The notes under the pieces: model-generated
The model's database searches: none
The model's input: the letters and a program-made list of their open reading frames with translations, nothing else
What the model was told of the DNA's origin: nothing
Origin: a bacterium
GTDB lineage: Bacteria > Lindowbacteria > 2-12-FULL-62-27
DNA length: 30,342 nucleotides
Assembly: GCA_016202645.1 (NCBI GenBank)
Contig: JACQOF010000096.1
Coordinates: 1 to 30,342, forward strand
Reading direction: 5' to 3'
Translations under genes and position numbers: made by a program
In this document: one piece after another, positions 4,349 through 26,141 of the stretch
Layout: each line of letters starts with the position of its first letter
Numbering within the stretch: the stretch's first letter is position 1

Positions 4349-5215
4349 AGCGTGACCGCTCGACGAGGAGGGCGCCAGGCGAACCCGGCGCTCCCGGCTC
4401 GCGGTGTTCCAAGGAACGTAGGCACCATCCATCGTGGGCGGGAGTGTACGGAAGCTGCGGGCAGGCGCAAGGCGATCCAGCGCTCATCCGCCACACGTGG
4501 ACACCGAGAAGAAGGCTGCGAAGTCGGGCCCAAGGCTGGGCGATGCATCATGCATCAGGGGCCTGGACGTCGCCTGCTACGTCAAGTGGTACATGATGTA
4601 CCACGGGCTGTCTGGGCTGGGCGATGACTCATGCATTCCGCGTTTGGACGTCGGACTCCGTGAAATCGAGGGGGCTATAGGTCGCATTCTGGGCCCTCGG
4701 GCGGCGGCGCGTTGCTCGAATTCGCGCCTGGCCCAACTGGCGGCGTCTCGTACGATTGACATCTGTTGTTGACATGACATCTTGCTGGCGCTCGATCGGA
4801 GAACTATGATGGCCAGCATCGTGGGTTGCTTGACCGCCGCGGCCCGCCGCTCGTACCGGAGCGTGTCAGACGCCGCACCCGCCGTGCGTGAGACCCGCTC
4901 GCGTCCTGCCCGCCCCGCTCCCCGAACGCGTGCGCACGGGGCCTGCCGCCGTGCGGAGCCCGGCGGACCGGATGTTCAACTCGTGACCAGATCCTTGCAG
5001 CCCGAAAATTTCGCGCAGACGCGCCACGCGGCGGCGGCCGGCAGCCCACCCGGTCGTGATCGGGTCTTACCGACCAGAGCAAAATGTGTGCGGCAGAAGC
5101 GAAAACTGTTCGAGTCGTGACTGGCTCAGATGGCCGGCGACGCGTGGGTCGCAGCGTTCGCTGCACGACGCGGACGCCGACCTGTCTACTTCGAGTTACT
5201 GTAAAGCCACCAACG
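4349..5215. other. 867-bp gene-poor gap containing repeat copy B; no convincing gene
   Basis: Besides the repeat described separately, 4370-4393 holds a weak GC hairpin (GGGCGCC/GGCGCTC) without a U-tract that could end the lipid operon. At 4754-4780 TTGACAT occurs twice close together. A TATGAT box at 4805-4810 has only a poor -35 partner. ORFs of 60-110 codons crossing this gap are Arg/Ala-rich, follow the repeat, or are antisense to the next gene, and I do not accept them. The region marks the switch from the lipid operon to the defence island. Confidence 0.6.
4445..4691 (+). repeat. Copy B of the interspersed repeat, with two perfect odd-length dyads
   Basis: 4445-4552 is the 108-bp block shared with copy A in inverted orientation (about 91% by eye). 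It ends in the dyad GATGCATCATGCATC (4542-4556), followed by a 19-bp dyad GTGGTACATGATGTACCAC (4586-4604), then by AGGTCGCATTCTG (4679-4691). Both dyads and the last motif recur, rearranged, at 26585-26716. Perfect symmetry around a single central base suggests protein-binding sites or the ends of small hairpins rather than coding sequence. Confidence 0.8.
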
Positions 5216-6103
5216 ATGACAAAGAGCGTCCTGTGGATCGACGACAGTGCTGAGGAGCGCGCTGCGGGCGAGGCGTTGCTCCGCGGGGTCGGCGGTATCA
5301 CCCCCCGACTTGCCGCCTCGTCCGACGAGGCGAGGAGAGTGCTGGAGACAATACGGGTGGATGCCGTCATCACGGACATCCTCAGGCGACGCCCGGATCG
5401 CTCCGTCGCGGCCGACGACGGATACCGGTTCTTTCGGGAGTACATCCGCCGTAGATTTCCGACGCTCCCGGTGCTGTTCCATACCAAGAACCTGCCCTCA
5501 ACGTTTGACACTGACGAGCACTCACAATACCTCTCCAAGTGGGAGCCTCCAGCCAAGAAGGCGATCGAACTCGAGGTGCGCCTGACAGACACGGTGCGGC
5601 TCTACGAGGCCTATGCCGATTGGGCGACGTGGCAGCGAATAGAACCCCGCCTCGTCGAGGTGACGTCAAAGCTCTTGGATAGGCTTCGCGCGGTGGACGA
5701 CATCTGGCGCCTCACACCGGACCAGTTCGAACAGCTAGTCGGCGAACTACTTGCGAGGCTGAGATACTCCGTGCTTTGGGTGCCAGGCGGGAAAGACGGT
5801 GGAATCGACATCGTAGCATCCTCAGGGGAACGAGATTTCCTCATCGACGTCAAGCGATATAGGGCAAGCGAGCCGGTTTCGGTGGAGTTGGTCAGGAGTG
5901 TGTACGGAGTCGCAGAATCCATCTCACCCACCCGGCCCGGCCGAATCGTCCACGGCGGAATCATCACGTCCAGCAGGTTCACCAAGGAGGTCGAGATATT
6001 CCGACAGACAGTGAGGCGACGCCCTTTGCTCCGCGACGGCGACTGGCTGAGGACGGAACTCGCGAAGTTTGTGCCGCGGACACGATTCACACAGCATGAC
6101 TAA
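5216..6103 (+). CDS. Receiver-domain / Mrr-type restriction endonuclease fusion
   Basis: 295 aa. Residues 4-120 look like a response-regulator receiver: acidic pair D9-D10 after VLWI, candidate phospho-acceptor D54 (VITD), T90 (PVLFHT) and K108 (YLSKWEPP). Residues 165-265 match the Mrr/REase_Mrr fold: LTPDQFEQLVGELL with E172, GGKDGGID with D198, then DVK (D211-K213) and the ending GGIITSSRFT typical of the family. Mrr-like nucleases cut modified or foreign DNA. No histidine kinase is nearby, so the receiver could be a signal or dimerisation module. ATG 5216 was chosen because the receiver begins directly after it; an in-frame ATG at 5084 would add 44 unfamiliar residues. The gene starts the defence island and is followed by a large inverted repeat. 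Confidence 0.82.
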   Translation: MTKSVLWIDDSAEERAAGEALLRGVGGITPRLAASSDEARRVLETIRVDAVITDILRRRPDRSVAADDGYRFFREYIRRRFPTLPVLFHTKNLPSTFDTDEHSQYLSKWEPPAKKAIELEVRLTDTVRLYEAYADWATWQRIEPRLVEVTSKLLDRLRAVDDIWRLTPDQFEQLVGELLARLRYSVLWVPGGKDGGIDIVASSGERDFLIDVKRYRASEPVSVELVRSVYGVAESISPTRPGRIVHGGIITSSRFTKEVEIFRQTVRRRPLLRDGDWLRTELAKFVPRTRFTQHD

Positions 6104-6815: not shown

Positions 6816-6847
6816 GTCTGACACACAGGTTCCCGTTGATGAAGTGA
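6812..6847 (+). promoter_or_regulatory. 11-codon coupling cistron before the NACHT gene
   Basis: ATG at 6812 overlaps the stop of the 81-aa ORF (ATGA). The mini-ORF reads MSLTHRFPLMK and its stop (TGA 6845-6847) overlaps the GTG start of the NACHT gene (GTGA). The NACHT start has no Shine-Dalgarno sequence of its own, so translation may depend on ribosomes that end here. This is inference from the overlaps only. Confidence 0.35.
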
Positions 6848-9294
6848 GCAGCACAGCGATGTCTCAGAGCCAGGTCTACGGCAAGTTTCTAAGCGGCCTG
6901 TCCTACAGGATTGACCGCGCTAACGACGACTTTCTGCTCGTCTCTCGGACAACACCCACAGGTGTCAAAGACGCTGTTTACATTCGGTGCCGCACGGCCG
7001 ACCCCTCCGACACTGAATGGGAGCGTCACCTTTCGGAGTTCGAGAGGAACAAACGGGAACAGCCGAAGACCAAGCGCTTCCTCGTTTATCCATCCGGTGC
7101 AATAGCGGACGCAGGCAGCGTAGCCGATGGCAGGCGGCTCGGTTTCGAGGTGCTCAGCGAGGGCGAGTTCCTCGACCGCTTCGCAAATCTCATTGAGCTA
7201 AGCGAGAAGATCCGTCTAGGTCTCGAAGGTCTTTCCGCTAAGGAACGACAAGAGTGGGCGGTCCTCCAGCGCACTTACACCGAACAGGAGGTGGTTGTCG
7301 GGGAGGCCCTCCAGGAATCTGCAAGCAGCTTTATTTTGGAGGACTGGTCCAAGCGACCGGGCGCCCAAGTCCTTGTCCTTCTCGCTCCCGCCGGTCATGG
7401 AAAAACCGCCCTCACGAAGTTCATAGCCTCCACCATGCTAAAGAGCTATCAAGAATCGAAGTCCTCTCCCCTTCCCATCCTCATCCCGTTCGCCAGTTAC
7501 CGACGCCTCGTGACGTTCCGGGCCCTCATCCTCGAGTTCTTCGATGACCATCGGCATCCGATCGCCATGGACACGTTCAATCTCCTGCTCAGTGCCGGCC
7601 GCCTCCTCCTTGTCCTTGACGGCTTTGACGAGCTCTGCGAGCAGGCGGGACTCGTCACCGCCCGCGAAAACCTGCGCACCTTCGCCGAAGGGATTAGCAC
7701 TGGCGGCAAATTTGTTCTGACTTCACGGACGATCTTCTACCGTACAAACATCGAAGGCGCCAGCCTCGTGAGTGATGTTATCGACGAAACCCGCGTCACC
7801 CATGCCGAACTCCAGCCGCTCGACGAACCTCGCCAACGACGTTTCCTGCAGAAACTGTCGCGCAATGAGAAGCTCGTCTCTCGCACCCTGCAGGTCCTAA
7901 AGGACGTGCCCCAGATCAAGGAACTGGCGGGTAGCCCCTTCTTGCTCAAAGAACTCCACGATATCTTCACGGCCAGCGAGCAAGCCACGTACACAGCCGC
8001 TGCCAAGAGTTCCGACCTCTACGCATGGATGCTAGATCGCCTCTGCGAACGGGAGCGCGACCGTCAAAACTACGATCTCTCTAACAAGGATCAAACCGCC
8101 TTTCTGGAGGAGCTCGCCAACTGGATTTTCACCGACACGCCGTCCACGGCTTCGCATGCCCTTGCGCTCGATACGGGTGCCGTCCAGTTCATGGTCGAAT
8201 ACGTCTTCGACGATTACATTCGGCGCTTTCCTGACCCTGATAGTAAGAAGAGCGAGCTGATCGAAAAACTCACTCACCACGCCGTTCTCAATGCGGTCGG
8301 CGGTGAGGCCGACAGGGTTCAGTTCATTCACCACACCTGGAAGGATTTTCTCGTTGCCAGGAGACTGGAGCGCAGCATTCGTCGCGCTAGCGCCAGGAAA
8401 GAGTGGGAGGAAGTCGCTCACGTCCTGCTGACACGGCCACTCCCTGAGTGGGTCGCGATGTTCCTGGCAAGCGGCCTTGAGGAAGCCGAACTCAAAATAC
8501 TCTGCCAGGATGCCCCGCGTCTTCGGGATCCCAGGATCTTCCCTAAGGTTCTCAGCGTTGCACTAAATCACGCCGAGTGGCGTGAGCCGACGGATTCCGA
8601 ACGACAGACCGAGCTCTTCCTCCGGCTTCTCGGCGGTTATACGTTCAAGGGGAAACTCCTTTCCTCGGTCAGATTCGCGCGCCTCAACTTCCACAGCCAT
8701 TCCTTCGACTCAGCTGAAATCCGCGACGGCGTGTTTTTCGAGTGTAACTTGCAAGGTAGCTCATTCCGTTCCTCCAGGCTGACAAACACCATTTTCGAGG
8801 CGTGCGACCTTCGAGCAGCGGATTTTACGCGCTCCACGCTCAACAACATTACCTGCCCCGATTGCGACGTCGCCCAAGCCGACTTCCGGGGCTCTAGCGG
8901 ACTATCTCTCCCGACGCTCCAGTTGCTGTCCGACCAAGGTGCTCTCGTTGACATGATCGGCATCATTCCTCGCCATCCTCCAGAGCGGAGAGATATCGTC
9001 AAGGATCTCTTGAAGAGGGTGTTGGCGAAGTTTCGGTATGATGCATCAAAGAAGGAGAGTGCTCTCGTCAGGGGGATCGAGCTAGGCAATCGGCGCTTCA
9101 TTGGTGAACGCCTCGTGAAGCGGCTGGTTAATTCAAACTACCTAACCGTCATCGATCGCGGAAAGTCCACCCCTGTAATCATTAAGCGCAATGACAAACG
9201 CAATCCTGAAGTCTGGCAATTCGTTGACACGGGCGAAGAGTCTTCCGAGCTTAGCCAGCTTATAGAAAACCTTCTACACGAGTACCCAGGCTAA
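6844..9294 (+). CDS. NACHT-type STAND NTPase with C-terminal pentapeptide repeats
   Basis: 816 aa from GTG 6844 (ATG 6859 is an alternative, 5 codons later). Residues 1-130 form an unassigned N-terminal domain, the likely effector. The NTPase has Walker A APAGHGKT (181-188) and Walker B LLLVLDGFDEL (254-264), the latter with the extra acidic residue typical of NACHT proteins. A helical middle part follows. Residues about 605-685 carry pentapeptide-type repeats (phrases such as FFECNLQGSSF, DLRAADF and VAQADF), which probably form the sensor, and a unique tail of about 130 aa ends the protein. STAND NTPases of this kind recognise phage components and then trigger an effector. It lies between the receiver-Mrr gene and the nurA operon on the same strand. 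Medium GC and less extreme codon use than the lipid operon suggest transfer. Confidence 0.82.
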   Translation: MSSTAMSQSQVYGKFLSGLSYRIDRANDDFLLVSRTTPTGVKDAVYIRCRTADPSDTEWERHLSEFERNKREQPKTKRFLVYPSGAIADAGSVADGRRLGFEVLSEGEFLDRFANLIELSEKIRLGLEGLSAKERQEWAVLQRTYTEQEVVVGEALQESASSFILEDWSKRPGAQVLVLLAPAGHGKTALTKFIASTMLKSYQESKSSPLPILIPFASYRRLVTFRALILEFFDDHRHPIAMDTFNLLLSAGRLLLVLDGFDELCEQAGLVTARENLRTFAEGISTGGKFVLTSRTIFYRTNIEGASLVSDVIDETRVTHAELQPLDEPRQRRFLQKLSRNEKLVSRTLQVLKDVPQIKELAGSPFLLKELHDIFTASEQATYTAAAKSSDLYAWMLDRLCERERDRQNYDLSNKDQTAFLEELANWIFTDTPSTASHALALDTGAVQFMVEYVFDDYIRRFPDPDSKKSELIEKLTHHAVLNAVGGEADRVQFIHHTWKDFLVARRLERSIRRASARKEWEEVAHVLLTRPLPEWVAMFLASGLEEAELKILCQDAPRLRDPRIFPKVLSVALNHAEWREPTDSERQTELFLRLLGGYTFKGKLLSSVRFARLNFHSHSFDSAEIRDGVFFECNLQGSSFRSSRLTNTIFEACDLRAADFTRSTLNNITCPDCDVAQADFRGSSGLSLPTLQLLSDQGALVDMIGIIPRHPPERRDIVKDLLKRVLAKFRYDASKKESALVRGIELGNRRFIGERLVKRLVNSNYLTVIDRGKSTPVIIKRNDKRNPEVWQFVDTGEESSELSQLIENLLHEYPG

Positions 9295-9392
9295 GGCGGA
9301 GGCCAACGTCCCCGACAAGGTCGTCACAGCGACGGTGATCTGAATCGTGTGGATGGACCGGTAGGGCCCGCGGGGCTCGGCCGGCAGCCTGC

Positions 9393-9429
9393 GGGGGCCG
9401 GCCCGGAACGGGTGGGCCGGTTCGCCCCC
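9393..9429 (+). terminator. GC-rich hairpin between the NACHT gene and nurA
   Basis: GGGGG-CCGGCCC (9393-9404) pairs with GGGCCGG (9414-9420) and CCCCC (9425-9429), with a small bulge TTCG. No U-tract follows. It could stop or slow transcription from the NACHT gene before the nurA promoter. The rest of the 282-bp gap shows no convincing gene on either strand. Confidence 0.4.
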
Positions 9430-9498
9430 GCTGCCGTGGCCCGGGCGCTATCTGCATCAAGAAGCGGATACGGGCCGCCTCAGGACAGAACCCATTTC

Positions 9499-9528
9499 TT
9501 GGTGACCACAACCCAACTTTGCTATTCT
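9499..9528 (+). promoter_or_regulatory. Possible sigma-70 promoter of the nurA-herA-druA operon
   Basis: TTGGTG (9499-9504), an 18-bp spacer and TATTCT (9523-9528) stand 48 bp ahead of the nurA ATG in a locally AT-rich stretch, after about 150 bp of very GC-rich sequence. The match to consensus is modest. Confidence 0.35.
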
Positions 9529-9576
9529 AAACCTCTCCATAAATTGGGGTATGCGGACGCCACGGAGGGGGCGACG

Positions 9577-10818
9577 ATGCAATTCATGAATCTCCCGGAG
9601 GAGGTGATCAACGGCGTCGCCGCGCAAATCCACTCGAGAACCAATAAGGACTATCACATCCCCGTCGTGGGCATTCCGAACAATCTCGAGACTCCACAGA
9701 TATTCGAGATCATGCCCTTCGACCAGATCGACCTTCCAGGCAGCCGCTTTTATGCCATCGATGGAAGCCGCAATAGTCACACCTTCTACAACGGTATTTC
9801 TCTGTGTTTCTATCAAGCTGGCTATGTTTGCTTTCAGCAAGGTCGTCAACTGCGCCTGAACGAGACTGACGACCCCGTTGTTCTTGGGAAGCTCTTCCAC
9901 GGGACGAAGATGCTCGTGCTTAGCGAGGAGGACCTGAGCGACATCTACGATGAGTTTCTCTCGATCAGCCCCGTCGTTGTTCTGTTGACATTCTTCGAAG
10001 ACAGCCCCGATCAGATCTTCCCGTATTCGAAGGAGATAGTTATCACGAGCGCGTCGAATCTTCTCGGATTCTGCCAAGAGGTCCTGGAGTGGGCCTGCGT
10101 CTACGATATTCTCACTCACGCACCATTATCGTCAGGAGACATCATCCTCCGTGATGGCGCCCTCCGAAGTCTCCAGATCAAGCAGCGGTACATGGTAAAG
10201 CTCGGCTATCTCGCCCACTCGAAAGGCATCCATGTTGTAGGCGTTACTAAACAGAGCCCAATCAAGACCGAGCTAGGATACACGTACGCGAAGATAGACA
10301 ACTATCTCCAGTCGAAGCTCAAACCAGAATACCCCTTCAAGACGCAGAATCCGAAGAGCCAAAAGTTATGCTGTTACTTCGAAGTGCGTGATGATGTGCT
10401 CGAAGCTGCGTACCGAGGAAGCAGCAGCGGCATGTATGCGAAGAAAGATATCGTGGGCGGTCGGGGCTTTGGCCTTTTCTTTTCCACCCGCCTCGATTAT
10501 GTCGAAAAGCTTCAGAACTATGATTGGCTGGTCTGTGACCTGAACATTTACGACTGCATACCTGGCATCGCGAACAAGGAGACCACGAGAGACGCTGGCA
10601 AGATCGCCGCGATCATGCACTTGCTCACAGCGACGACTCAGGAACACTACATCCTAGGATATCCGTACCCACTGGTCGAAGCCCACCATTTGGTGTCGCT
10701 CACCAGCGATTTCAAGCAAGAAGCCATAGCCAGAGTCAAGGCTGCGCTTTATGCCTCTCAGCACATGGATCACACCGACATCGAGAACCTATTCCTGGAC
10801 CTCCACTCCAGGTTCTAA
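9577..10818 (+). CDS. nurA: NurA-domain 5'-3' nuclease
   Basis: 413 aa. The NurA active-site pattern is visible: FYAIDGSR with D62 near the N terminus, a second Asp in IILRDGALRSL (about residue 192), and the late YPYPLVEAHH (about 362-372). NurA proteins are RNase H-like nucleases that work inside or against a HerA hexamer during end resection; herA follows directly. ATG 9577 was chosen over the long upstream frame because GGAGGGG lies six bases ahead and the upstream part is GC-rich noise. It is the first gene of a three-gene run with herA and a druA-like gene. Its stop codon lies in the left arm of a long hairpin (10816-10900). Bacterial NurA-HerA pairs occur both as repair factors and in anti-phage loci; the setting here favours defence. 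Confidence 0.85.
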   Translation: MQFMNLPEEVINGVAAQIHSRTNKDYHIPVVGIPNNLETPQIFEIMPFDQIDLPGSRFYAIDGSRNSHTFYNGISLCFYQAGYVCFQQGRQLRLNETDDPVVLGKLFHGTKMLVLSEEDLSDIYDEFLSISPVVVLLTFFEDSPDQIFPYSKEIVITSASNLLGFCQEVLEWACVYDILTHAPLSSGDIILRDGALRSLQIKQRYMVKLGYLAHSKGIHVVGVTKQSPIKTELGYTYAKIDNYLQSKLKPEYPFKTQNPKSQKLCCYFEVRDDVLEAAYRGSSSGMYAKKDIVGGRGFGLFFSTRLDYVEKLQNYDWLVCDLNIYDCIPGIANKETTRDAGKIAAIMHLLTATTQEHYILGYPYPLVEAHHLVSLTSDFKQEAIARVKAALYASQHMDHTDIENLFLDLHSRF

Positions 10819-10900
10819 TGAATCTCGCGTATCAGGTTAACGCCAAAACGGCTGCTTTCACGAGGGCGACGCTCGTTAACCAGTTCCGCGAGATTCATTA
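10816..10900 (+). promoter_or_regulatory. Two-tier hairpin between nurA and herA
   Basis: TAATGAATCTCGCG (10816-10829) is perfectly complementary to CGCGAGATTCATTA (10887-10900). After a symmetric 5/5 internal loop a second perfect stem follows: GGTTAACG (10835-10842) with CGTTAACC (10874-10881). The apical loop is 31 nt. The structure begins on the nurA stop codon and ends two bases before the herA ribosome-binding site (GGGGGAGG, 10903-10910). It could set the NurA:HerA ratio by attenuation or RNA processing, or be an operator or recombination site. Confidence 0.8.
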
Positions 10901-10916
10901 GCGGGGGAGGTCGCTT

Positions 10917-12548
10917 ATGGACAAGAAGGATTTCGGCGTTCTCTACGGCCAGAAGACGACGGAGGATGCTCTCCTCATCTACTCCTCATACGAGGACGCG
11001 AAGGCGTCACCCAAGATGGGTGATTTCATCGTGCTCTCGCCAAAGGATGAGGGCGGCACGAAGTACCTCGCGCGCGTGGAAGCCGAGGTGTACGACGAGG
11101 ATCCCCTGTTTCGGTCGCAGGACAAGACTCTTGTCGCGGTTCACTATGCCCGCATCGCTGAGCGTGAACTCTCCGAGCGGGACAAGCAGAAGATGTTCAG
11201 CTATACCTACAAGGTCCGGATGCTCGGTACCTTTGAGGACAAAGGAACGTCGATTTCGTTTACAACGGCCGTTCGGAAGCTACCCGTCGTGTCCTATCAC
11301 GCTCGCCACCTCCAGCCTATCGAAGTGGCACACATCCTGAACATCGGAAACGAGACTGGCGTGTCCCTCGGCCATCTGTGCGTCGGTGAGGACGTTCAGG
11401 ATGACAAGGGCCACATTCTCTTTGACACGGCCCGCCTGAAGTCAAAGCGCACTATGATATTTGCGCAATCCGGGTTCGGCAAGACCAATCTAATGAAGGT
11501 CCTCCTTTACAACACGATCGGTGATAACACATTTGGGAAACTCGTGTTTGACCTTAACGGCGAGTACTATTCAAAGACTGCCGCCCAGACTGTCGGCCTC
11601 GGCGACGTGGACGAGGAGAAGGTACGGCAGAATCTGATTGTCTACTCCGACCGCAAGATCTCCAAGCCGAAGGGCTACACGTACTCCGGCAAGGTCCAGG
11701 TCAACACCCACAAACACATGACGGTGGGCGACATTCTCACGTTTTCTACTGGCTTCTCGGAAGTGATGAAATCCTTCCTGCTGTATCTCGACGACAAACA
11801 GGTTGAGGGGTTTGTTAAGAAGATAGACTCGTACTGCGACTCACCCCAGAATCTATACAAGGATTTCCCTGACTTCTTCGGCTCGAAGTCCGAGGGGGAC
11901 GACAAGAAGCAGGATAAGAGCGCCCGCGGCACAATTATGGCCATTAGGAAGCGCATTCGTCATTTCATTGACGAAGGCGGTGTTCACTCTTCAAGCTCGA
12001 CGCTACTGGAGGATACCTTCAAGGTACTGCGCCAGGGCAAGACAGTAATAATAGATCTGTCATTACGCGACAGCCTCGACGCTTCTATCATATCCACAAT
12101 GATTGTCCGTAAGCTATTCGAGGACAATAAGAAGAACTACACTGAGGCGAAGGATCAGGAGATCATCCGCTCCGTCATCGTAGTCGAAGAAGCCCAGAAC
12201 GTTCTTTCGGATGAGCAGGTCAGAACCTCAGAGAATCCATTCGTGCGGGTAGCAAAGGAGGGCCGCAAGTTCGGTATTGGCCTAGTTGCCATCACTCAGC
12301 GTCCATCTGCCATCTCAGAAGAGATACGGAGCCAGGCCGAGAATTTCTTTGCCTTCTACATGGGCAACTCGGATGACATCAAGGCACTCGTCAAGTCAAA
12401 CGTAAACTATGATGGGGTCGTAAGCTCCTTCATCCAGAGAGAGACAATCCCGGGAAATCTCTATTTTGTTACATCGTCGCACCCCTTTGTCATACCAGTC
12501 AGGGTCATTGAGTTCGACAGGTTGGTTGCGAAGAAGCAGTACAAGTAA
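10917..12548 (+). CDS. herA: HerA-type hexameric DNA translocase ATPase
   Basis: 543 aa. The N-terminal 130 residues fit a HAS-barrel. The FtsK/HerA ATPase follows with Walker A AQSGFGKTN (about 183-191), a strand FDLNGEY typical of HerA, Walker B SVIVVEEAQNVL (about 420-431), and the arginine-finger region ITQRPSAISEEIRSQ (about 459-473). HerA hexamers pump DNA and activate partner nucleases, here presumably NurA. ATG 10917 stands six bases after a strong GGGGGAGG. The druA-like gene starts 30 bp after the stop. AT content is higher than in the lipid operon, which points to acquired DNA. Confidence 0.88.
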   Translation: MDKKDFGVLYGQKTTEDALLIYSSYEDAKASPKMGDFIVLSPKDEGGTKYLARVEAEVYDEDPLFRSQDKTLVAVHYARIAERELSERDKQKMFSYTYKVRMLGTFEDKGTSISFTTAVRKLPVVSYHARHLQPIEVAHILNIGNETGVSLGHLCVGEDVQDDKGHILFDTARLKSKRTMIFAQSGFGKTNLMKVLLYNTIGDNTFGKLVFDLNGEYYSKTAAQTVGLGDVDEEKVRQNLIVYSDRKISKPKGYTYSGKVQVNTHKHMTVGDILTFSTGFSEVMKSFLLYLDDKQVEGFVKKIDSYCDSPQNLYKDFPDFFGSKSEGDDKKQDKSARGTIMAIRKRIRHFIDEGGVHSSSSTLLEDTFKVLRQGKTVIIDLSLRDSLDASIISTMIVRKLFEDNKKNYTEAKDQEIIRSVIVVEEAQNVLSDEQVRTSENPFVRVAKEGRKFGIGLVAITQRPSAISEEIRSQAENFFAFYMGNSDDIKALVKSNVNYDGVVSSFIQRETIPGNLYFVTSSHPFVIPVRVIEFDRLVAKKQYK

Positions 12549-12577
12549 GGACACGTTAGGACCGAGCGCATCCAGGA

Positions 12578-13804
12578 ATGGCTAGCCGCCTGTCTCGCCG
12601 AGCACAGAAGCTCCGCGAGAATCTGCTCGGGCTTCTCAAGAGGCAAGGCTTCGAGCTGGGTCCGAATCTGTTGCTAAAACAGAGATCATACGGCAAGGAA
12701 GAGGTTCGACAGATTCATTCGCTCTCAAGGCGCGAACATCTATCTGAGGAGCGAGCATTCGTTGAGGCGAACCTGCCGCAGGTCTGGAAGTACCTTGCGT
12801 CGGGTCGCGACCTCCATCCGGACAAGATCCAGCCGTACCCGGTACTGGTGGGCGATGATGAGGAACTCGGCGCGCTCTTCCGGATCGCATCGCTCTGGTG
12901 GAGCGTGCCCGTCTCCCGGGGCTTTGGTCGAAGGTTTCGCATTGTCGTACTTGACAGATCTAACGCCAAGCTGATCGGACTCCTAGGGCTTACTGATCCG
13001 GTATTCAATCTCAAGGTCAGGGATTCGTGGATCGGATGGACGGCTGACGACCGGGAAGAGAGGCTCGCGCACGTGATGGATGCTTACGTGCTCGGCGCCG
13101 TTCCTCCGTACAACCGACTGCTTGGAGCCAAGCTCATAGCGCTCCTCGCGGCTAGCGACTTCGTGAGAGCAGTGTTTCAAGATCGTTACCGGGCCGTAAA
13201 GTCGATCATTCGAGGCAAGCAATTCGATGGACGGCTCGCCATGATAACCGCGACCAGCGCTCTGGGTAGATCCTCAATCTACAACCGCTTGCGATTTTCA
13301 GGTGTCGAGGTGTTTCGGCCCGTTGGACTGACCGAAGGCTACGGCCACTTTCATTTGGCGAATGGTACCTACAAGAAGCTGCGCGAATATTTGAGGGCCG
13401 AGGGAGAGGATGAGGTGGACCGTCATGAGTTTGGCCAAGGGCCCAATCATCGAATTCGAGTAGTGCGAAAGGCGCTCGAGTGCTTAGAGCTGCCCGCAGA
13501 TCTTCTCCGACACGGCGTCAGACGGGCTGTCTACTTGGCGCCTCTCGCTTCGAACGCGACGAAGTTTCTGAAGGGCGAGGCTACCAGGCTCGGGTGGCAC
13601 AAGCGACCACTGGATGAGGTGATCCAATTGTGGCGAGAGCGCTGGTTGATTCCGCGAGCCGAACGAGACACATCGTATGCTTCCTTTGACCGGGACACGT
13701 GGAGGCAGATACTGGAGCTGCCCACGCCAGAGCACGGCGCCGCCTCCCGTCGGGGCGGCCAGCCACGGAGTCATGACAGCGGGTCGAGGGGTCGAGGGGG
13801 ATGA
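12578..13804 (+). CDS. druA: DUF4338 (Druantia DruA-type) protein
   Basis: 408 aa, close to the usual length. Features I associate with the family run through the protein: SLWWSVPVSRGFGRRFR (about 106-122), KLIGLLGLTDPVFNL, SWIGWT, MDAYVLGAVPPYNRLLGAKL (about 168-187) and TSALGRSSIYNRLRFSGV (about 228-245). DruA is one of the proteins of type I Druantia, where it acts with a large DruE helicase; its biochemical role is not settled. No DruE, DruB, DruC or DruD is present here. The upstream partners are HerA and NurA, 30 bp away on the same strand. AGGA abuts the ATG directly, which is a poor spacing, so translation may depend on herA. The last 25 residues are Gly/Arg/Ser-rich and may be a read-through tail. 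Confidence 0.8.
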   Translation: MASRLSRRAQKLRENLLGLLKRQGFELGPNLLLKQRSYGKEEVRQIHSLSRREHLSEERAFVEANLPQVWKYLASGRDLHPDKIQPYPVLVGDDEELGALFRIASLWWSVPVSRGFGRRFRIVVLDRSNAKLIGLLGLTDPVFNLKVRDSWIGWTADDREERLAHVMDAYVLGAVPPYNRLLGAKLIALLAASDFVRAVFQDRYRAVKSIIRGKQFDGRLAMITATSALGRSSIYNRLRFSGVEVFRPVGLTEGYGHFHLANGTYKKLREYLRAEGEDEVDRHEFGQGPNHRIRVVRKALECLELPADLLRHGVRRAVYLAPLASNATKFLKGEATRLGWHKRPLDEVIQLWRERWLIPRAERDTSYASFDRDTWRQILELPTPEHGAASRRGGQPRSHDSGSRGRGG

Positions 13805-13862
13805 AAACGGGATTATCGTACCGGTGAAATGATGCGGATTTGGTCTCACTCAGTATCAAAGC

Positions 13863-14075
13863 ATGGTGAGCCCTACTGTAAGTCTCGACGAGACCGAGAA
13901 AATCCGCGACAGACCGAACGCAATCGAGAACGCCTCGAACGAATCCTCGCTTCGGCACCACTCTCTTTCCACGCCGCGCGAGCGAACCTTTACCACACAG
14001 CAGGCCGGCGTGATAGTGTCGGGCATGGAACGCCACACGCCCTTCATGCCTTTCAGCTTGACGCCGTCGGGATGA
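13863..14075 (+). CDS. Possible small protein overlapping the next gene
   Basis: 70 aa from ATG 13863. Its stop overlaps the ATG of the following gene (ATGA at 14072-14075), the arrangement used by genuine gene pairs in this window. No family, no clear ribosome-binding site and only moderate codon bias. It may equally be a chance frame in the 267-bp gap after the druA-like gene. Confidence 0.3.
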   Translation: MVSPTVSLDETEKIRDRPNAIENASNESSLRHHSLSTPRERTFTTQQAGVIVSGMERHTPFMPFSLTPSG

Positions 14076-15007
14076 AGCCGCTGCTCGAGTTCGAGCCCTT
14101 CGGGTCAACGGGAAGACGAAAATGGATTCTCTCCCTCAGCCCGGAGGAGCGGCACTCCTGGGCTCGGCTGCGGTTATTCGTCCGCTCTTGTCGGCTGCAG
14201 GGCGTCAGCTTCAACTGCAAGCCTGAGGGGCAGGGGGCGACCCTTCAAGAGATGACGAAGCGACTCGAGCAGGGTATTGTCGCCCACGGCCTGCCCTACG
14301 AACTGCTCCCCGATACCCTGCTCGCCGACGTCATGGCCGCCGTGAAACACGCCGCAGGCAATCCGGCCGCGTTCTCGCTCCCACGGGTTCTGCAGCTCCT
14401 CGAACGCGTCACCATAGACGTCGGCGGAGCCACGGTGAATTGGGCGGCCTACCGCCGGGCCACAGCGGCATCGCCACGCCGGCTCGCCGCCGAGGTCATG
14501 GATCTCGGCAGCGATTGGGCAGACCAAGAAGTGCCGAAATGGATCGAGTGGTGCGCCTCGACATCGGAGCGAGACCTCGGGCTCCTCACGCAGTACGAGG
14601 ATGTTCGTGATCAGCTCGCGCAGCTTGAAACGAAGGGCACCCACCTCTCGGTCGTGTTGCAAGAGCGTGTGGGCCTGCACGGCGCGCACCTTCGGCTCGG
14701 CCACTGGTCTGTGGAGGTGCGAGACCGCTGGAAGATGCGGAGCGAGTTCGACTGGGCCCCGAGTGAATGGGCGATCTTCCTGATTGCGGAGAAGGAGCGA
14801 ACCCATACGCGTGCGATCAAGCACGAGCTCGCCGCTCAAAACCTGGAACGACAGATCGCTAGCGCCTGGACCCACTACGGACGCTGGCTCGGCGAGCAAC
14901 CCCACGAACTCCGTGAACTGGAGATCCTCCTGGGCGGCATCACGATCACTCCTGTTGGTACTGAAAGCGGGGCCAAAATCAGTACCAACGTCGATTCAAT
15001 AGCTTAG
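14072..15007 (+). CDS. Hypothetical protein, 311 aa
   Basis: The frame reads MKPLLEFEPFGS at its start and is probably soluble, with no membrane segment. It is rich in Trp and charged helices, for example SPEERHSWARLRLF near the start and EWAIFLIAEKERTHTRAIKHEL near the end. I recognise no domain. Coding quality is good (strong third-position G/C) from 14072 on, and the frame upstream of that ATG looks unlike protein. A perfect 11-bp inverted repeat lies inside its last 18 codons. It sits between the defence trio and the recombinase set and could belong to either, or be an independent gene. Confidence 0.7.
   Translation: MKPLLEFEPFGSTGRRKWILSLSPEERHSWARLRLFVRSCRLQGVSFNCKPEGQGATLQEMTKRLEQGIVAHGLPYELLPDTLLADVMAAVKHAAGNPAAFSLPRVLQLLERVTIDVGGATVNWAAYRRATAASPRRLAAEVMDLGSDWADQEVPKWIEWCASTSERDLGLLTQYEDVRDQLAQLETKGTHLSVVLQERVGLHGAHLRLGHWSVEVRDRWKMRSEFDWAPSEWAIFLIAEKERTHTRAIKHELAAQNLERQIASAWTHYGRWLGEQPHELRELEILLGGITITPVGTESGAKISTNVDSIA
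14954..14989. repeat. Perfect 11-bp inverted repeat at the 3' end of the 311-aa gene
   Basis: GTTGGTACTGA (14954-14964) and TCAGTACCAAC (14979-14989) are separated by 14 bases and lie within coding sequence, 18 bases before the stop. It may be a hairpin that ends transcription or a recombination site; there is no U-tract. Confidence 0.6.
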
Positions 15008-15083
15008 CCGCCGTTCGCACGCGCTCGACCGCCACGCGATCCTATCCCTGACCCCTTCCGGAGTAGCGTGGGCTCCGGATGTC

Positions 15084-15446
15084 ATGGGCCACCTGATCCA
15101 GTTCTGCAAGCGGTACAGCCCGATGCGCTGCGGCGCCGAGGACGGCGCCGTCTGTCCAGGCGGCGGCGACATCGTCTGCGTCGACCGCGCAGGTGCGCTG
15201 ACGCTCATCAGCCCGTCCCGGCAGTGCGTGAGGCTGGCCTTCCATGTCGCTCAGCCGGCCGACGACTGCCCAGCGCCGATGACCCCCGTCTCCCTCGACG
15301 CGGTCTCGCGCACGCCGTTCGTGCCCGGTCCGTTCAACCCCCGCGGCGTCCCAGCGTCCCGCCGAAAGTCTCAGCCGAGTCTCGAGCGGCGAGACGAGCA
15401 CGTCGGCGCCACGCGGATGGTGGAGGGCTCGCCGTGCGCCACATGA
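15084..15446 (+). CDS. Small Cys-containing hypothetical protein in the recombinase operon
   Basis: 120 aa, ATG 15084. The N-terminal half has spaced cysteines (FCKRYS, MRCG, AVCPG, IVCVD, RQCVRL) that could bind a metal; the C-terminal half is Arg/Pro-rich and probably disordered. No family is recognised. Its stop overlaps the ATGATG start of the P-loop protein, which supports it as the first gene of a coupled set with that protein and the tyrosine recombinase. No strong ribosome-binding site is seen. Confidence 0.5.
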   Translation: MGHLIQFCKRYSPMRCGAEDGAVCPGGGDIVCVDRAGALTLISPSRQCVRLAFHVAQPADDCPAPMTPVSLDAVSRTPFVPGPFNPRGVPASRRKSQPSLERRDEHVGATRMVEGSPCAT

Positions 15447-17740
15447 TGCCCACCGACTGGGCCCTCCTCGAGTTTCTCGCTCAGGGCGCCAGGCCCATCG
15501 CCGGACTCTTGAGCCGCTATCCCAAGGGCACGGTCTACCGGCGGTTGCGCGGGCTCCGCGCTGAGGGTCTGATCGCCACGTCCCCTCAGGGCTATGCCCT
15601 CACGTCCACCGGGGAACGCGCGCTCGCCGAGCGCGACGCGCAGGTGTTCATCGAGGGCCTGGGGGAAGCCTATCCCCCGCTGCGGGACGTGCCCACCCCT
15701 CAACACCGGGCGTGGCTCGAGCTCGCCCTCGCGGCCCTCGCCCTGCGCCGGCACACCGACCAGGAGGACCGGCACGCCGGCCTGCTCATCCTCGGCCCCA
15801 CGCTGAGCTGGAAGACCTCGGCGGCCGAGTTTCTTGCCGTCGCCCTGGGCGTGGACCCCACGACCCATATTGCCGATCTGCGGGCCGAGAGCGGGCAGAG
15901 CCTCTGGATCCGCCGCGGCCCGACGGGCGACGTCATCACCCAGCGCAGGCTCGTCAATGCGCCGATCGCGGTCTTCGACGAGTACCAAGCGGCCGACCGC
16001 GCCGTGCGGCGGGCCGTCGCGCCGTTCCTCACCGGCAAGCGCCGCCTGGCGATTGAGAACGACGTCGTCACCATCGCCCCGGTCCCCATCGTCATCCTGA
16101 ACCCCGCCCCGGGCGCAACCCTCGCGGCGCGGACTGGCTTGAGCGCGCCTCAACTCCGCCGGCTCATCCCGCTCGACGTGACGGGCCTGACCCTGTCCGA
16201 CCTCGCTGCCTCCGGCACGCGCCCGCTCGCCGCGGCCCGCCGCGCGGGGCCCTGCATGATTCCGGTGCCTCAGGACGCCGCCGACACCCTGCGCGCCCCG
16301 CTCGTGGAGGTGCTGCGCACGGTGCTGACGCCTGACGGCGCCGCGCTCCTCGATGTCGAGGTGGTGCTCGGGTTGGGCCGGGGTATGACCGCCTGGTTTT
16401 CCCCGACCGTCGCCCTCCGTCAGGCGCTCTACAACACCCTCCTCGTCGTCGAGACCGTTGGCTGGGTGAAGCCCGGATGGGTCGATGCCGTGCGCGCCTT
16501 CCCCAACGCCCGCCCGAGCCGCGCAGCGTCAACGATCGGGGCGGCGCCCGGTCAGGCGGCGCTGAACACCCGCACCATGCCCATCATTCCGCTGTTCCCG
16601 GAGCGCCGGGACCCCGCCGGAGAGGAGCGCGCCATGTCCGCGCAGGACTCGATGATGCCCGCCTTCACGCTGTCCGAGACCGCGAAGGCCGAGCTGGTCT
16701 GGCTGAGCCGTGAGCTCCAGATGCCCCTCGACATGGCCGTCGGGGTGCTCATCGACCATTACCGCTTCACGATGGGCACCGGCCACGACTTCGGGAACCT
16801 CCAGGCCATTGCGCACCTCCGGAAGGCGTGCGCGGAGACCCACGTGACCGCGCAGGATCTCCGCGACTGCGTCGAGCTCAAGGCGGCACTCCGCGAGCAT
16901 GACCTCGCGATCGACGAGGTCCGGGACGCGCTGGAGGTCGCCAAGGCGCTGGATGCCGCCGGCCTCAGCCTGGAGCAGGCGCAGGCCGTCGCCACACTGA
17001 GCGCCGACCTCGAACAGGCCGGGATCGACACCGCGATCGCCGACGAGCTCCGCAGCGCGCTCACACGCTACCAGGCCCTGGGGTACGACGTCGAACGCCT
17101 CACGGCCATCGCGGGTCTGTGGAGCCGTCTCGAGGCCTTGGGGATTGGCGTGGACGACCTGGCCGGGGCGCTGGACCACCTGGAGCAGCTCCGCGCCCTC
17201 GGGCTCGATCAGGCGACGGCCGAGGCCCTGGCCCGCGCCCTCGAGGCCGCTGGCATCACGACGGAGGACCGTGGCGTCGTCCTGCACCACGTCGTCGACA
17301 CGGGATGCGCCGCGGCCGATCGCGTGCGGCTCGACCAGGAGCGCGCCCGGCGTGCGCGCGAGGTCACGGCCCTCAAGGCGACGCTGGCCGCGCGCCGCGC
17401 CGCGCTCACCGAGATCCACCGACAGATCGACGGCGCCACGACACAGCGGGAGCAGCTTCAGCGCGAGCTGACTGACCTGACCCAGCAGGCCGCCGCGTTC
17501 CGCGACGCGATCGTCACCGCCACGGCGCTCGAGCGGTTCCTCCTCCAGCACACGGCGGCCGACGATCCGTTCTGGTCGAAACTCGAGCTGCTCCTCACCA
17601 CCAAGCGCAGCGCGCCGGCGCTCTTCTCGACCCTCCAGAGCTGGCTCGGCCCGGACCTGCGCCAGCGCGTGCGCGCCTTCCTGGACCAGATCGCCGGAGG
17701 TGGAACGACGCCGGCGACGGGCGCTGCGGGTGAGGCCTGA
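15443..17740 (+). CDS. Winged-helix / atypical P-loop / coiled-coil protein
   Basis: 765 aa from the ATG overlapping the previous stop. Residues 1-65 resemble a winged helix (LLSRYPKGTVYRRLRGLRAEG then GLIATSPQGYALT). A P-loop-like ATPase follows: GPTLSWKTS (118-126) where a Trp stands at the usual Gly of Walker A, Walker B IAVFDEYQ (175-182) and a sensor-like strand PIVILNP (215-221). From about 410 the protein is helical with recurring L-x-x-L-G-L units, then a coiled coil (about 640-720, from RVRLDQERARRAREV on) and a Trp-containing end. No described family comes to mind. A diverged partial homologue lies at 27784-28650. The tyrosine recombinase starts just after the stop, so a role in recombination or maintenance of a mobile element is inferred. 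Confidence 0.75.
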   Translation: MMPTDWALLEFLAQGARPIAGLLSRYPKGTVYRRLRGLRAEGLIATSPQGYALTSTGERALAERDAQVFIEGLGEAYPPLRDVPTPQHRAWLELALAALALRRHTDQEDRHAGLLILGPTLSWKTSAAEFLAVALGVDPTTHIADLRAESGQSLWIRRGPTGDVITQRRLVNAPIAVFDEYQAADRAVRRAVAPFLTGKRRLAIENDVVTIAPVPIVILNPAPGATLAARTGLSAPQLRRLIPLDVTGLTLSDLAASGTRPLAAARRAGPCMIPVPQDAADTLRAPLVEVLRTVLTPDGAALLDVEVVLGLGRGMTAWFSPTVALRQALYNTLLVVETVGWVKPGWVDAVRAFPNARPSRAASTIGAAPGQAALNTRTMPIIPLFPERRDPAGEERAMSAQDSMMPAFTLSETAKAELVWLSRELQMPLDMAVGVLIDHYRFTMGTGHDFGNLQAIAHLRKACAETHVTAQDLRDCVELKAALREHDLAIDEVRDALEVAKALDAAGLSLEQAQAVATLSADLEQAGIDTAIADELRSALTRYQALGYDVERLTAIAGLWSRLEALGIGVDDLAGALDHLEQLRALGLDQATAEALARALEAAGITTEDRGVVLHHVVDTGCAAADRVRLDQERARRAREVTALKATLAARRAALTEIHRQIDGATTQREQLQRELTDLTQQAAAFRDAIVTATALERFLLQHTAADDPFWSKLELLLTTKRSAPALFSTLQSWLGPDLRQRVRAFLDQIAGGGTTPATGAAGEA

Positions 17741-17870
17741 TGTGAACGACGGGGGACAGCCGTCGCACCACGACGACGCCGGCGGCGGCGCCGCGAACGC
17801 GGCGGTTGACCCCTGGCTCGTGCCCCCCGATAATCCGCCTCAGCGCGTGGCGGACAAGCGGAGGCAGCCC

Positions 17871-18773
17871 ATGCGCTTGTCCGCGCTCTTTGAGGAGTTC
17901 TGCCAGTACCTCCGGGTCGAGAAGGAGGCGGCCCCCCGCAGCATCGAGACGTATCGCTGGTGCTTTGGTGATTTCGTGGAGTTCGCGAGGCACGACGTTG
18001 GAGGCACGGTGCTCGTCACCCACTTCACCGCGGAGCGTTGCCGGGAGTATCAGTACGCACTGTCTGCGCGCGGGTTGCAGACCAACTCCATCCGCGTGCG
18101 GCTGGCGACCCTCGGCAGCTTCGGGAAGTGGGCCGTGCGCCGGGAGAAGCTCGACAAGAACCCGCTCGATCTCCTGACTCGCCCACGGCGGAAGGCCCGC
18201 TTGCCGCGGGTGCCCCGCTGGGAAACGGTTGAGCGGCTGCTCGCGGACTCGTCCGATCTGCGAGAGCGGGCGATCGTCGCACTCATGGCCTACGGGGGCC
18301 TGCGGCGGTCCGAGGTGGTCGCCCTCGACGTCGGCGACTACGCGCCGGAGTTCGGGTTACGGCGTGTGCGTGGCAAGGGCGGGCATGAGGCGGCGGTGCC
18401 CCTCCCCGAGGTCGCCCGGGCGTTCGTGTCGGAGTACGTCACCAAGGAGCGGGCCGACGCCGGCAGTAGTGACCCGATGTTCGTGGTGCGCTACCGCACC
18501 CGCGCGGGGGTCCGGCGCGAGAGCCGGATGACCGGCCAGAGGGTGTGGAAGCTCATCAAGGTCCTGGGCCGACGGGCAGGCTTACCCGAGTTACACCCGC
18601 ATGCCTTCCGTCATGGCTGCGGCGTGGAGCTGCACCGGCGCACCGGCGGGAATCTCCGTGTGGTGCAGGAGCACCTGCGGCACGCGGACATCCAGACGAC
18701 GACCGTGTATACGCGACTGACGCAGCATGAGCTCCAGCAGGCGGTCAGCGTCTTCGACGAGAAGGGGAGCTAA
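17871..18773 (+). CDS. Tyrosine recombinase / integrase (XerC/D-like)
   Basis: 300 aa, the usual length. A SAM-like N-terminal core-binding domain (about 1-95) is followed by the catalytic domain with all residues present: Arg in GGLRRSE, Lys in VRGKGGHEA, H-x-x-R in HPHAFRHG, His in HLRHADIQTT and Tyr in TVYTRL. ATG 17871 has GCGGAGG about seven bases upstream. A GTG at 17742, two bases after the previous stop, would add 43 disordered residues and is the coupled alternative. A terminator-like hairpin and a tRNA 3'-end fragment follow the gene, which fits an integrase next to its attachment site. Confidence 0.9.
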   Translation: MRLSALFEEFCQYLRVEKEAAPRSIETYRWCFGDFVEFARHDVGGTVLVTHFTAERCREYQYALSARGLQTNSIRVRLATLGSFGKWAVRREKLDKNPLDLLTRPRRKARLPRVPRWETVERLLADSSDLRERAIVALMAYGGLRRSEVVALDVGDYAPEFGLRRVRGKGGHEAAVPLPEVARAFVSEYVTKERADAGSSDPMFVVRYRTRAGVRRESRMTGQRVWKLIKVLGRRAGLPELHPHAFRHGCGVELHRRTGGNLRVVQEHLRHADIQTTTVYTRLTQHELQQAVSVFDEKGS

Positions 18774-19527: not shown

Positions 19528-19802
19528 GCGCGCCAGGGGATTTCCGGCACATCAGGCCGGGCTCGACTCGCACGTTCTTCGAAGCCCTCGATCTGGCGGG
19601 CCTCCCGCATCCCAGCCTCCCATACCCCGGCTACCTCGCCGAGATCGGCGACCTCTTCCTCTCCCTCCTAGTCGCCGGGGTCGATCACGAGGTGGTCGGC
19701 GACGAGACCTGGTACTGCCGCATCCTCGGCAATGCCCCAGACGCCGTTGATTCGCCCGGCCCCGAGCAGATAACTAAGCGCGACGGTCAGGACGACCCCT
19801 GA
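19524..19802 (+). CDS. Small hypothetical protein between the terminase genes
   Basis: 92 aa, with the start overlapping the previous stop (ATGA) and the stop overlapping the next start (TGATG). The sequence is acidic and not membrane-bound (for example FFEALDLAGLPHPSLPYPGY). Function unknown; coupled translation with the two terminase-type genes suggests a packaging or accessory role. Confidence 0.65.
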   Translation: MSAPGDFRHIRPGSTRTFFEALDLAGLPHPSLPYPGYLAEIGDLFLSLLVAGVDHEVVGDETWYCRILGNAPDAVDSPGPEQITKRDGQDDP

Positions 19803-21373
19803 TGCCAGCCGCCCCCTCGATCATCGAGTTCTGCACGGACTCCCAATTGCTCGGGCTCTCGATCTCTCCAGCGCAGGAGACGCTGCTCCGGTCCCTATAT
19901 GGCCTGCCCCTCGGGGACGAGCACCTCCATCTCTTCCGGGCTTGTACGGGACGCGCCACGTACGTGGGGACGCCCTTCAGCGAGGCGACAGTGATCGCCG
20001 GAGCCCGTGCGGGCAAGGACAGCCGGATCGCCGCGCCCGTTGCCTGCTACGAGGCCGTCTTCGGCGGCCACGAGCGCCATCTCGCCCGGGGCGAGCGCGC
20101 CGTCATCCCACTCGTCGCCCAGGATCAGCGCGCGACGAAGATCGCCTTCGGCTACATCCGCGACTACATGACCCGCTCCTCGCTCCTGGCCTCGCTCGTC
20201 GAGGAGGTGCTTGCGTCGGAGATCGTCCTCGCGAATGGCGTCACCATCGCGTGCTTCCCCTGCACCCTCCGATCGCTCCGAGGCTGGTCGATCCCTGTCG
20301 GCGTGATGGACGAGGTCGCCTTCTTCCGTTTGGAGGGTCAAGCTGACAGTGACGTGGAGATTCAGGCATCAATCCGCCGGGGAATGATCGCCTTTCCCAC
20401 CACCCGGCTCATCAAGATCAGCACGCCATACATGAAGAGCGGCGTCCTCTACGAGGACTTCAAGCGGGGCTTCGGGCAGGACGATCCCGATTTGCTCGTC
20501 TGGCGTGCCTCGTCACTCCTGATGAATCCTTCGCTTCGCGCCGAGCGCCTTCAGCGCGAGCAGCGGCTCGATCCCCTTCGCTTCGCCCGGGAGTACGAGG
20601 CGGAGTTCGCCGAGGACCTCGAAGCCTTCCTGCCCTCGGCCTGGGTCGATCACGCGGTCATCACCGGACGCCATGAGCTGCCGCCTCGCCCCGGCGTGCG
20701 CTACGTCGCCGCCGTGGACCCGTCAGGGGGCGGAGCCGACGCGTTCACCCTGGCCGTCGTCCATGCCGAGGGCCAGGGGCCGGAGCGGCGCATCGTACTG
20801 GACGTGATGCGCGGGTGGAGCCGGCGCGGGAGCGAGACGCTCGATCTCGAAGGCGTCGTCCGGGAGATCGCAGCTCTTGTGAAGCCCTATGGGCTGCGCA
20901 CCGTCATCGGCGATCGCTACGCGGCCGGGTGGGTTCGCGAACGCTTCCGGGCCGAGGGGCTCCGGTACGAGGAAGCCGAGATCAGGACCCCCAACGACCC
21001 CGGCGCCACGCGCTACCTCGAGAAGAGCACGGCCTATCTCGAAGTCGAGCCGTTGTTTGCCCAGGAACGCCTCGATCTCCTCGACCATCCCCAGCTCGCG
21101 CGGGAACTGAAAATGCTGGAGCGGCGCCACCGTGCCGGAGGCCGGACGCTCGTCGACCACCCGACGGGTGGGCATGATGATTTCGCAAACGCCCTCGCGC
21201 TGGCGGCGGCACTCGCTGCGCACAGTCGGGGACGCCCATTCGCCTCGGCGGTCCTCCCCGCTGGTGTCCACTCGATCGGCGAGCCGAGCCTCGCCCCGAT
21301 GGGCCGAGTGTCCGGCGGCGGGATGGGCGGGGTAGGCGGGCAGGCATCGTACATCGAGCGCTATTACCGATAG
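19802..21373 (+). CDS. terL: Phage terminase large subunit-like protein
   Basis: 523 aa. N-terminal packaging ATPase: Walker A-like GARAGKDS (about 66-73) and Walker B VGVMDEVAFF (about 166-175), followed by a coupling-type ISTPY. C-terminal RNase H-like nuclease: AAVDPSGGGADAF with the first Asp at about 304, VIGDRYAAGW (about 369) and HDDFANALA (about 457). These are the parts needed to translocate and cut DNA into a capsid. The last 50 residues are Gly-rich. It is coupled to the two preceding small genes. No portal, protease or capsid gene follows; the next gene is radC. This is either a prophage remnant, a satellite that uses other phages' capsids, or a domesticated nuclease. Confidence 0.82.
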   Translation: MPAAPSIIEFCTDSQLLGLSISPAQETLLRSLYGLPLGDEHLHLFRACTGRATYVGTPFSEATVIAGARAGKDSRIAAPVACYEAVFGGHERHLARGERAVIPLVAQDQRATKIAFGYIRDYMTRSSLLASLVEEVLASEIVLANGVTIACFPCTLRSLRGWSIPVGVMDEVAFFRLEGQADSDVEIQASIRRGMIAFPTTRLIKISTPYMKSGVLYEDFKRGFGQDDPDLLVWRASSLLMNPSLRAERLQREQRLDPLRFAREYEAEFAEDLEAFLPSAWVDHAVITGRHELPPRPGVRYVAAVDPSGGGADAFTLAVVHAEGQGPERRIVLDVMRGWSRRGSETLDLEGVVREIAALVKPYGLRTVIGDRYAAGWVRERFRAEGLRYEEAEIRTPNDPGATRYLEKSTAYLEVEPLFAQERLDLLDHPQLARELKMLERRHRAGGRTLVDHPTGGHDDFANALALAAALAAHSRGRPFASAVLPAGVHSIGEPSLAPMGRVSGGGMGGVGGQASYIERYYR

Positions 21374-21529
21374 AGCCGCCGTCGAACGAACCTGAGCGAA
21401 GTTGGCAGGCCGCTCCTCCATTCCTCAGGCCGATCTCGGCAGGACCTCTCGCTCGCTCTCGATACTTTTCCCTTGACCCACCTGCTCAGTCGTCTACGCT
21501 CCGTAACCTTGCTCGACGAGGAGCGTGCG

Positions 21530-22030
21530 ATGGTCAACCAGGCGAAGGTGGTCGGAAAGACCCAGACGAACGGCGGGACGCGACGGAACTACGTTCCCTT
21601 CATCACCTTCCGTGTCGTGCGCGACACTGCGATCGGCGAGGCACACGTCCTCGACGCCCCGCAGAAGGTGGCCGACCTCGCGTTCGAGGTCATCCCCGAC
21701 GACGCAAAGGAGCACTTCCTCGTGCTCCTGCTCGATGCGCAGAACGCGCTCGTCGCCGTCCACGAGGTCTCGGTCGGGACGCTGACGGCCTCCCTTGTGT
21801 CTGCCCGGGAAGTGTTCGGCCCAGCGTTGCGCACGATGGGGGTGGCCGCGCTCGTCTTGGTTCACAACCACCCGTCTGGCAGCCCGTCGCCGTCGATGGA
21901 GGACAAGCGGCTCACGAGGCAGCTCGTCGAGGCGGCGCGGTTGCTCGACCTGAAGATTCACGATCACGTCCTCATCGGCAACGGCCAAAAAAAGGCCTGG
22001 CAATCGCTCGCCGAGATGGGCCTGCTCTGA
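21530..22030 (+). CDS. radC: Short RadC/JAB-domain protein
   Basis: 166 aa. The JAMM metal-binding motif HNHPSGSPSPSMED is intact at about 111-124, and an upstream Glu lies in VHEVSVGTLTASLV. The N-terminal helix-hairpin-helix part of chromosomal RadC is absent, as in the short RadC proteins carried by plasmids, islands and phages. ATG 21530 was chosen for the ACGAGGAG ribosome-binding site six bases ahead; an in-frame start at 21473 lacks one. Role unproven; such proteins ride with mobile elements and have been linked to recombination or protection of incoming DNA. Confidence 0.85.
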   Translation: MVNQAKVVGKTQTNGGTRRNYVPFITFRVVRDTAIGEAHVLDAPQKVADLAFEVIPDDAKEHFLVLLLDAQNALVAVHEVSVGTLTASLVSAREVFGPALRTMGVAALVLVHNHPSGSPSPSMEDKRLTRQLVEAARLLDLKIHDHVLIGNGQKKAWQSLAEMGLL

Positions 22031-26133: not shown

Positions 26134-26141
26134 CGCTCTCC

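Follow-up and report, generated by a model that had tools for sequence, protein, structure and literature searches.

The nurA, herA and druA genes of the window, the 30,342-nucleotide stretch of bacterial DNA analysed here, apparently form an undescribed conserved three-gene cassette, whose motor and nuclease are nearest, as judged from sequence and a predicted structure, to TdpA and TdpB of the TdpABC system. The trio is almost certainly a real conserved unit, and we infer that it very probably acts in defence against phages or foreign DNA. The chances are about equal for and against its being a minimal modification-restriction system of the TdpABC type, in which DruA, most likely as the writer of an acyl mark, gives self/non-self discrimination. 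The window corresponds to one contig (C70) of a 2.9-Mb assembly with 146 contigs and 82% completeness, and its phylum is represented by only three genomes in the data searched.

The first gene, nurA (9577..10818, + strand), encodes a 413-aa NurA/TdpB-like nuclease of the RNase H fold, as indicated by Pfam (PF09376, E=6e-6), a structure model and an alignment. It is followed by herA (10917..12548, +), encoding a 543-aa HerA/TdpA-like hexameric translocase ATPase (DUF87, PF01935, E=7e-18, together with the match to TdpA), and by druA (12578..13804, +), whose 408-aa product was assigned to DruA with a GNAT-like fold from Pfam (PF14236, E=1e-86), a structure model and the PADLOC DruA1 model, which matched residues 6-379 with E=1e-127. 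The PADLOC HerA models matched the window HerA as well, while PADLOC 2.0.0 holds no model matching the window NurA, so that the family call of the latter comes from Pfam alone. In a search of NCBIfam 20.0, NurA and DruA obtained no named family, and all matches of HerA were far under the cut-off. On recheck, we recovered the coordinates, the single strand, the gaps of 98 and 29 bp and the IDGSR and RDG motifs as the sequence-only reading had given them, and the profile search that it proposed found all three families. The nurA start codon (ATG at 9577) is the same as in the homologue from locus L009. Residues D62 (of IDGSR) and D193 (of RDG) were invariant in the 15 NurAs aligned, with E171 and H370 nearly so; HerA has an intact Walker A motif (AQSGFGKTN) and a VVEEAQ motif. 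The hallmarks of the repair complexes, namely the catalytic acidic residues of NurA and the Walker motifs of HerA, are thus present in the window proteins according to the alignments. In Thermococcus NurA, mutation of the predicted active-site aspartate D49 abolished cleavage (PMC12977600).

To place the trio among other DruA loci, genomes were scanned with a DruA alignment, giving the 80 closest DruA loci; 88 loci were classified in all. DruB-type genes were found in 64 of them and DruE without a detected DruB in 12; in 10 of the 88, NurA and HerA adjoined DruA, and the remaining 2 had no known partner in the stretch examined. The order NurA-HerA-DruA was found in four genomes (the window, L009, L126 and L141, including Acidobacteria and Chloroflexota), and the order DruA-NurA-HerA in at least seven from several phyla (L012, L022, L035, L050, L080, L098 and L142), where the genes overlap or stand a few bases apart. 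Gaps lie between -23 and +12 bp in most trio loci. A third, very divergent form is represented by L017. The earlier proposal of a unit had been staked on the recurrence of the DUF4338 gene beside nurA-herA: the census located this adjacency in three other genomes with the window order and in at least seven with the other main arrangement.

The closest complete relative, L009 from Acidobacteria, has the same gene order and 73% (NurA), 84% (HerA) and 61% (DruA) identity to the window proteins. Its trio is flanked by unrelated genes (a groEL-like one on one side, by eye), and the unit therefore consists of just the three genes. The gene at 13829-15007 was considered as a fourth member and rejected: it belongs to no family in Pfam, PADLOC or NCBIfam, has no similarity to the Nitrosococcus gene in the DruC position and has no counterpart by the trios of L009, L126 and L141. 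The latter two, which came from the Chloroflexota searches, are 68-69% (HerA), 54-57% (NurA) and 37-40% (DruA) identical to the window proteins. DruA adjoins all four HerAs of the window type and all six close HerAs of the L050 type; L143 (61%) lacks it. Since L009, L022, L035, L050 and L080 were found via DruA, the unbiased count is that of L126, L141, L098 and L142, or four of four. HerAs of the window and L050 types are patchy, occurring in ~0.5-2.5% of the sampled genomes per group, and the window genome has a single HerA of this kind and a single DruA, both in the window. Viral contigs scanned with NurA and HerA singly yielded no relatives; plasmids yielded no NurA relatives and only distant HerAs.

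Of the three proteins, HerA varies least across the window group and DruA most. Between L126 and L141, identity is 78% for HerA and 66% for NurA versus 34% for DruA, no closer than to the DruAs of other systems, with the key residues of the family retained in both (PF14236, E<1e-58 each). Such divergence would be expected if a putative specificity component were exchanged or changed rapidly. On the HerA tree, where long branches leave the deep joins unsure and the L017 HerA was not placeable (the second tree was built without it), partner labels cluster, with 4 changes versus 9.4 in shuffles. For the DruAs linked to NurA-HerA, the DruA tree requires ~4-5 label changes, the very long branch of the L126 DruA being unsure in position, and therefore the partnership of DruA with NurA-HerA seems to have arisen or been swapped on more than one occasion.

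The sequence-only reading had put HerA-NurA in the place of motor and nuclease. The pair itself was confirmed, and its kinship had to be revised toward TdpA and TdpB. Among all solved chains, the best relative of the window HerA is TdpA (phmmer E=9.6e-26, compared to 2e-14 for archaeal HerA), and the same holds for the HerAs of the L050 group and of the methyltransferase-linked group described below (L127). NurA matched TdpB by profile with E=9e-8. The NurA model, although of moderate confidence (pLDDT 61.9), had TdpB as its best match with Z 22.7 over 333 of 358 residues, while the best archaeal match, Sulfolobus NurA, reached Z 14.5 and Deinococcus NurA 11.6. By these comparisons the motor and nuclease resemble TdpA/TdpB far more than repair NurA-HerA, which makes TdpABC, rather than Druantia or repair NurA-HerA, the closest known system. 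TdpABC was described in Thermus (TdpAB structures 8wet, 8wfd and 8y1k); there TdpC makes phosphorothioate DNA, and unmodified DNA is degraded by TdpAB. The layout of a DNA-modifying partner with a translocase-nuclease would be common to both systems, with the phosphorothioation enzyme TdpC in one and DruA as the third gene in the other; the identity of NurA to TdpB in the structural alignment is only ~14%. With the bacterial and archaeal NurA-HerA end-resection complexes, the window pair shares superfamilies, the pairing and the class of active-site residues, but its predicted NurA structure is nearer to TdpB than to the NurA of Sulfolobus, Thermococcus or Deinococcus, and it has DruA as a partner. 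A HerA-type motor in defence is likewise common to HerA-SIR2, HerA-DUF4297 and DndFGH, which differ in the effector, a NurA/TdpB nuclease being present here: a Pfam search of the window operon for SIR2, DUF4297 and DndF/G found none, and the neighbours of HerA are NurA and DruA.

The DruA model was obtained with pLDDT 87.8 and pTM 0.84. With Foldseek, nearly all top matches were GNAT acyltransferases, including protein acetyltransferases, with weak E-values (0.44 for Mom). A structural aligner ranked phage Mu Mom at the top (Z 10.2, 182 residues, rmsd 4.1), ahead of other GNATs (Z 9.6-8.7, 132-178 residues) by both Z and aligned length. The lead of Mom is below one Z unit (10.2 versus 9.6), a tie by the rule of the aligner: the GNAT fold is supported by the model and kinship with Mom is suggested, and the fold does not establish DNA as the substrate. 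GNATs acetylate many substrates, commonly proteins. A search of the PDB with the DruA sequence returned chance matches alone, and against the Mom family, whose phage and bacterial members carry out momylation, DruA shares the GNAT fold but no detectable sequence similarity and is about twice as long. The strictly conserved residues of DruA include a PPYN-x-LLG-x-K segment, which by pattern only is a putative acyl-CoA site, where GNATs bind acyl-CoA. DUF4338 was independently called a GNAT domain (PMC10853773). The target of Mom acylation is N6 of adenine, and fusions of Mom-type enzymes with nucleases have been predicted to act as modification-restriction systems (PMC7824862); in a HerA/FtsK system from a BREX-related setting, which has neither DruA nor NurA, a GNAT was proposed as the DNA modifier (PMC12839542). 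The literature searched contained no demonstrated activity of DruA.

Searching with an L050-type HerA revealed eight loci in which NurA-HerA pairs (HerA ~45% identity) stand without DruA and with an N6/N4 DNA methylase. The methylase precedes NurA in L118, L121, L127 and L147 and follows HerA in L128, L144, L145 and L146, that is, in the same two positions that DruA takes in its two arrangements; HerA is interrupted in L121. These TdpAB-like NurA-HerA loci with a methyltransferase are themselves a candidate undescribed restriction-modification system.

The window DruA is a full-length family member, 38-50% identical to the DruAs of type I Druantia (DruABCDE; DruA-B-C-E). The remaining components of that system, the DruE helicase with DruB, DruC and DruD, are missing here, in agreement with the first reading: no window ORF matched two DruE queries or two sets of queries from the DruB/C/D positions, the operons of L009, L126 and L141 have no DruE, and all four genes are absent from the operon in every trio locus of both arrangements. 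The motor and nuclease of the window are unrelated to DruE. A review places type I Druantia among the modification-based systems, as one relying on DNA methylation, and cites a phage protein by which methylation is promoted to evade it (PMC12904381); this listing agrees with a mark-linked DruA and leaves writer and reader undistinguished. As the sequence-only reading supposed, the composition appears to be new: PADLOC 2.0.0 does not list the trio, and neither NCBIfam 20.0 nor the papers searched, which took in only a minority of subscription papers, describe a DruA-NurA-HerA system.

Several other DruA loci deserve mention in their own right. In seven (L003, L026, L041, L048, L075, L082 and L088; Meiothermus, Dehalococcoidia, Caldilineaceae and Anaerolineales), DruE stands upstream of DruA with no DruB/C/D detected, and the DruAs of these two-gene loci form a supported cluster on the DruA tree. 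L099 carries, convergent to a DruA-NurA-HerA operon, a helicase resembling DruE (DruE3, E=6e-86) together with a DrmMI-like methyltransferase (8939-17999, - strand), perhaps as an ARMADA-type locus. In L012 (635-8559, Anaerolineae), DruA-NurA-HerA is followed by Mre11- and Rad50-like genes and preceded by a tyrosine integrase fragment (by eye).

The 98-bp gap between nurA and herA is peculiar to the window genome, its relatives having 8-12 bp or an overlap. It contains an imperfect palindrome (10815..10901, +) with 28-nt arms that are 89% complementary, which is specific to the window and may be an insertion or act as an attenuator or binding site; a genome-wide repeat was rejected, no second copy being present in the same genome. 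The shared promoter previously considered likely was not borne out, as a consensus scan found none 5' of nurA and the count for the region was no higher than in shuffles.

Directly 5' of the trio, a gene for a NACHT NTPase with pentapeptide repeats (6844-9294) is possibly a separate NLR-like defence gene. Further upstream, 5084-6103 encodes a protein of 339 aa whose C-terminal domain is an Mrr_cat endonuclease (PF04471) and whose N-terminal half is receiver-like (response regulator) by eye only. An AIPR protein is encoded at 24409-26178 (-; PADLOC AbiU match, E=6e-27). The genes at 15440-17740 and 27847-28650 are, by eye, apparent paralogues of an ATPase-like protein, and near them lie a tyrosine integrase (17700-18773), a terminase-like gene without a Pfam match (19802-21373) and a RadC JAB gene (21473-22030). 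Palindrome-containing, partly inverted repeats at 4534-4653 (GTGGTACATGATGTACCAC) and 26601-26716 (GATGCATCATGCATC), near both sides of this 22-kb defence-rich stretch, are possible element boundaries; in addition, 117-224 is an inverted, 91% identical copy of 4445-4552. We counted the defence island with its Mrr-type, NACHT and AIPR/AbiU genes in favour of a defence cassette, and the position of the L009 trio, which has no obvious defence island around it, against it.

In the mechanism that we propose, the HerA ring motor would feed double-stranded DNA into NurA, which would degrade what it is given, and DruA, through its predicted GNAT fold, would supply self/non-self discrimination by writing or reading a self mark. 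Most likely DruA would put an acyl-type, Mom-like mark on host DNA; the mark would block NurA-HerA, and unmarked DNA would be loaded, pumped and degraded. Whether DruA modifies at all we regard as evenly balanced, and it may instead recognise a mark or a sequence and leave DNA unmodified. The fully specified form, in which DruA is a Mom-like acyltransferase writing a new DNA mark in a writer slot interchangeable among DruA, the methyltransferase and, in TdpABC, TdpC, is put forward tentatively. The target recognition that the sequence-only reading assigned to DruA survives as a rival, but a DNA-modifying or mark-reading component with a GNAT fold is more likely than a pure target-recognition subunit. 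As that rival, the same cassette would contain a non-catalytic DruA for recognition or loading, which makes no self mark itself and recruits NurA-HerA once bound to its target, be this a sequence, a mark of the host or a structure of the phage. Its faster divergence compared to NurA and HerA speaks for such a factor. So does its pairing with the unrelated motor DruE in most loci, by which DruA might serve several DNA machines as an adaptor; it could also read the methylation mark linked to type I Druantia (PMC12904381). Against this stand the GNAT fold, the strictly conserved residues including the segment that resembles a CoA site, and the true methyltransferase taking the place of DruA in related loci, and we consider a non-catalytic factor possible but rather unlikely.

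Control of the nuclease by DruA through acetylation of a protein, be it NurA, HerA or a host factor, for example as a switch or in a toxin-antitoxin-like manner, would suit the frequent action of GNATs on proteins and the protein acetyltransferases among the top Foldseek matches; it is improbable given that DruA is interchangeable with a DNA methylase and that the DruA family also works with the unrelated DruE. Slightly less probable still is a cassette for the resection of DNA ends or for repair, in which DruA is an accessory and which has no role in defence. NurA-HerA does resect DNA ends in archaea and Deinococcus (PMC9960219, PMC12977600), and the L012 relative adds Mre11 and Rad50, but the effector is nearest to TdpAB, these HerA types are patchy and present as a single copy in the window genome, and DruA is otherwise accompanied by Druantia genes (76 of the 88 loci). 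Chance adjacency, with druA as a mobile Druantia fragment landed behind nurA-herA, can draw on how common DruA is across many phyla; the census of four genomes with the window order and at least seven with the other, their genes overlapping or abutting, refutes it and leaves it a negligible probability.

Returning to the cassette with DruA as the probable discriminating component, its occurrence beyond Druantia, alongside a motor-nuclease with relatives that have a DNA methyltransferase in that place, gives a direct test of DruA function. With these loci, TdpAB-type effectors also become a modular family that has two or more additional partners, and Druantia would join the modification-based systems on mechanistic grounds. 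If DruA is indeed a Mom-like writer, type I Druantia itself would be a restriction-modification system based on an acyl mark.
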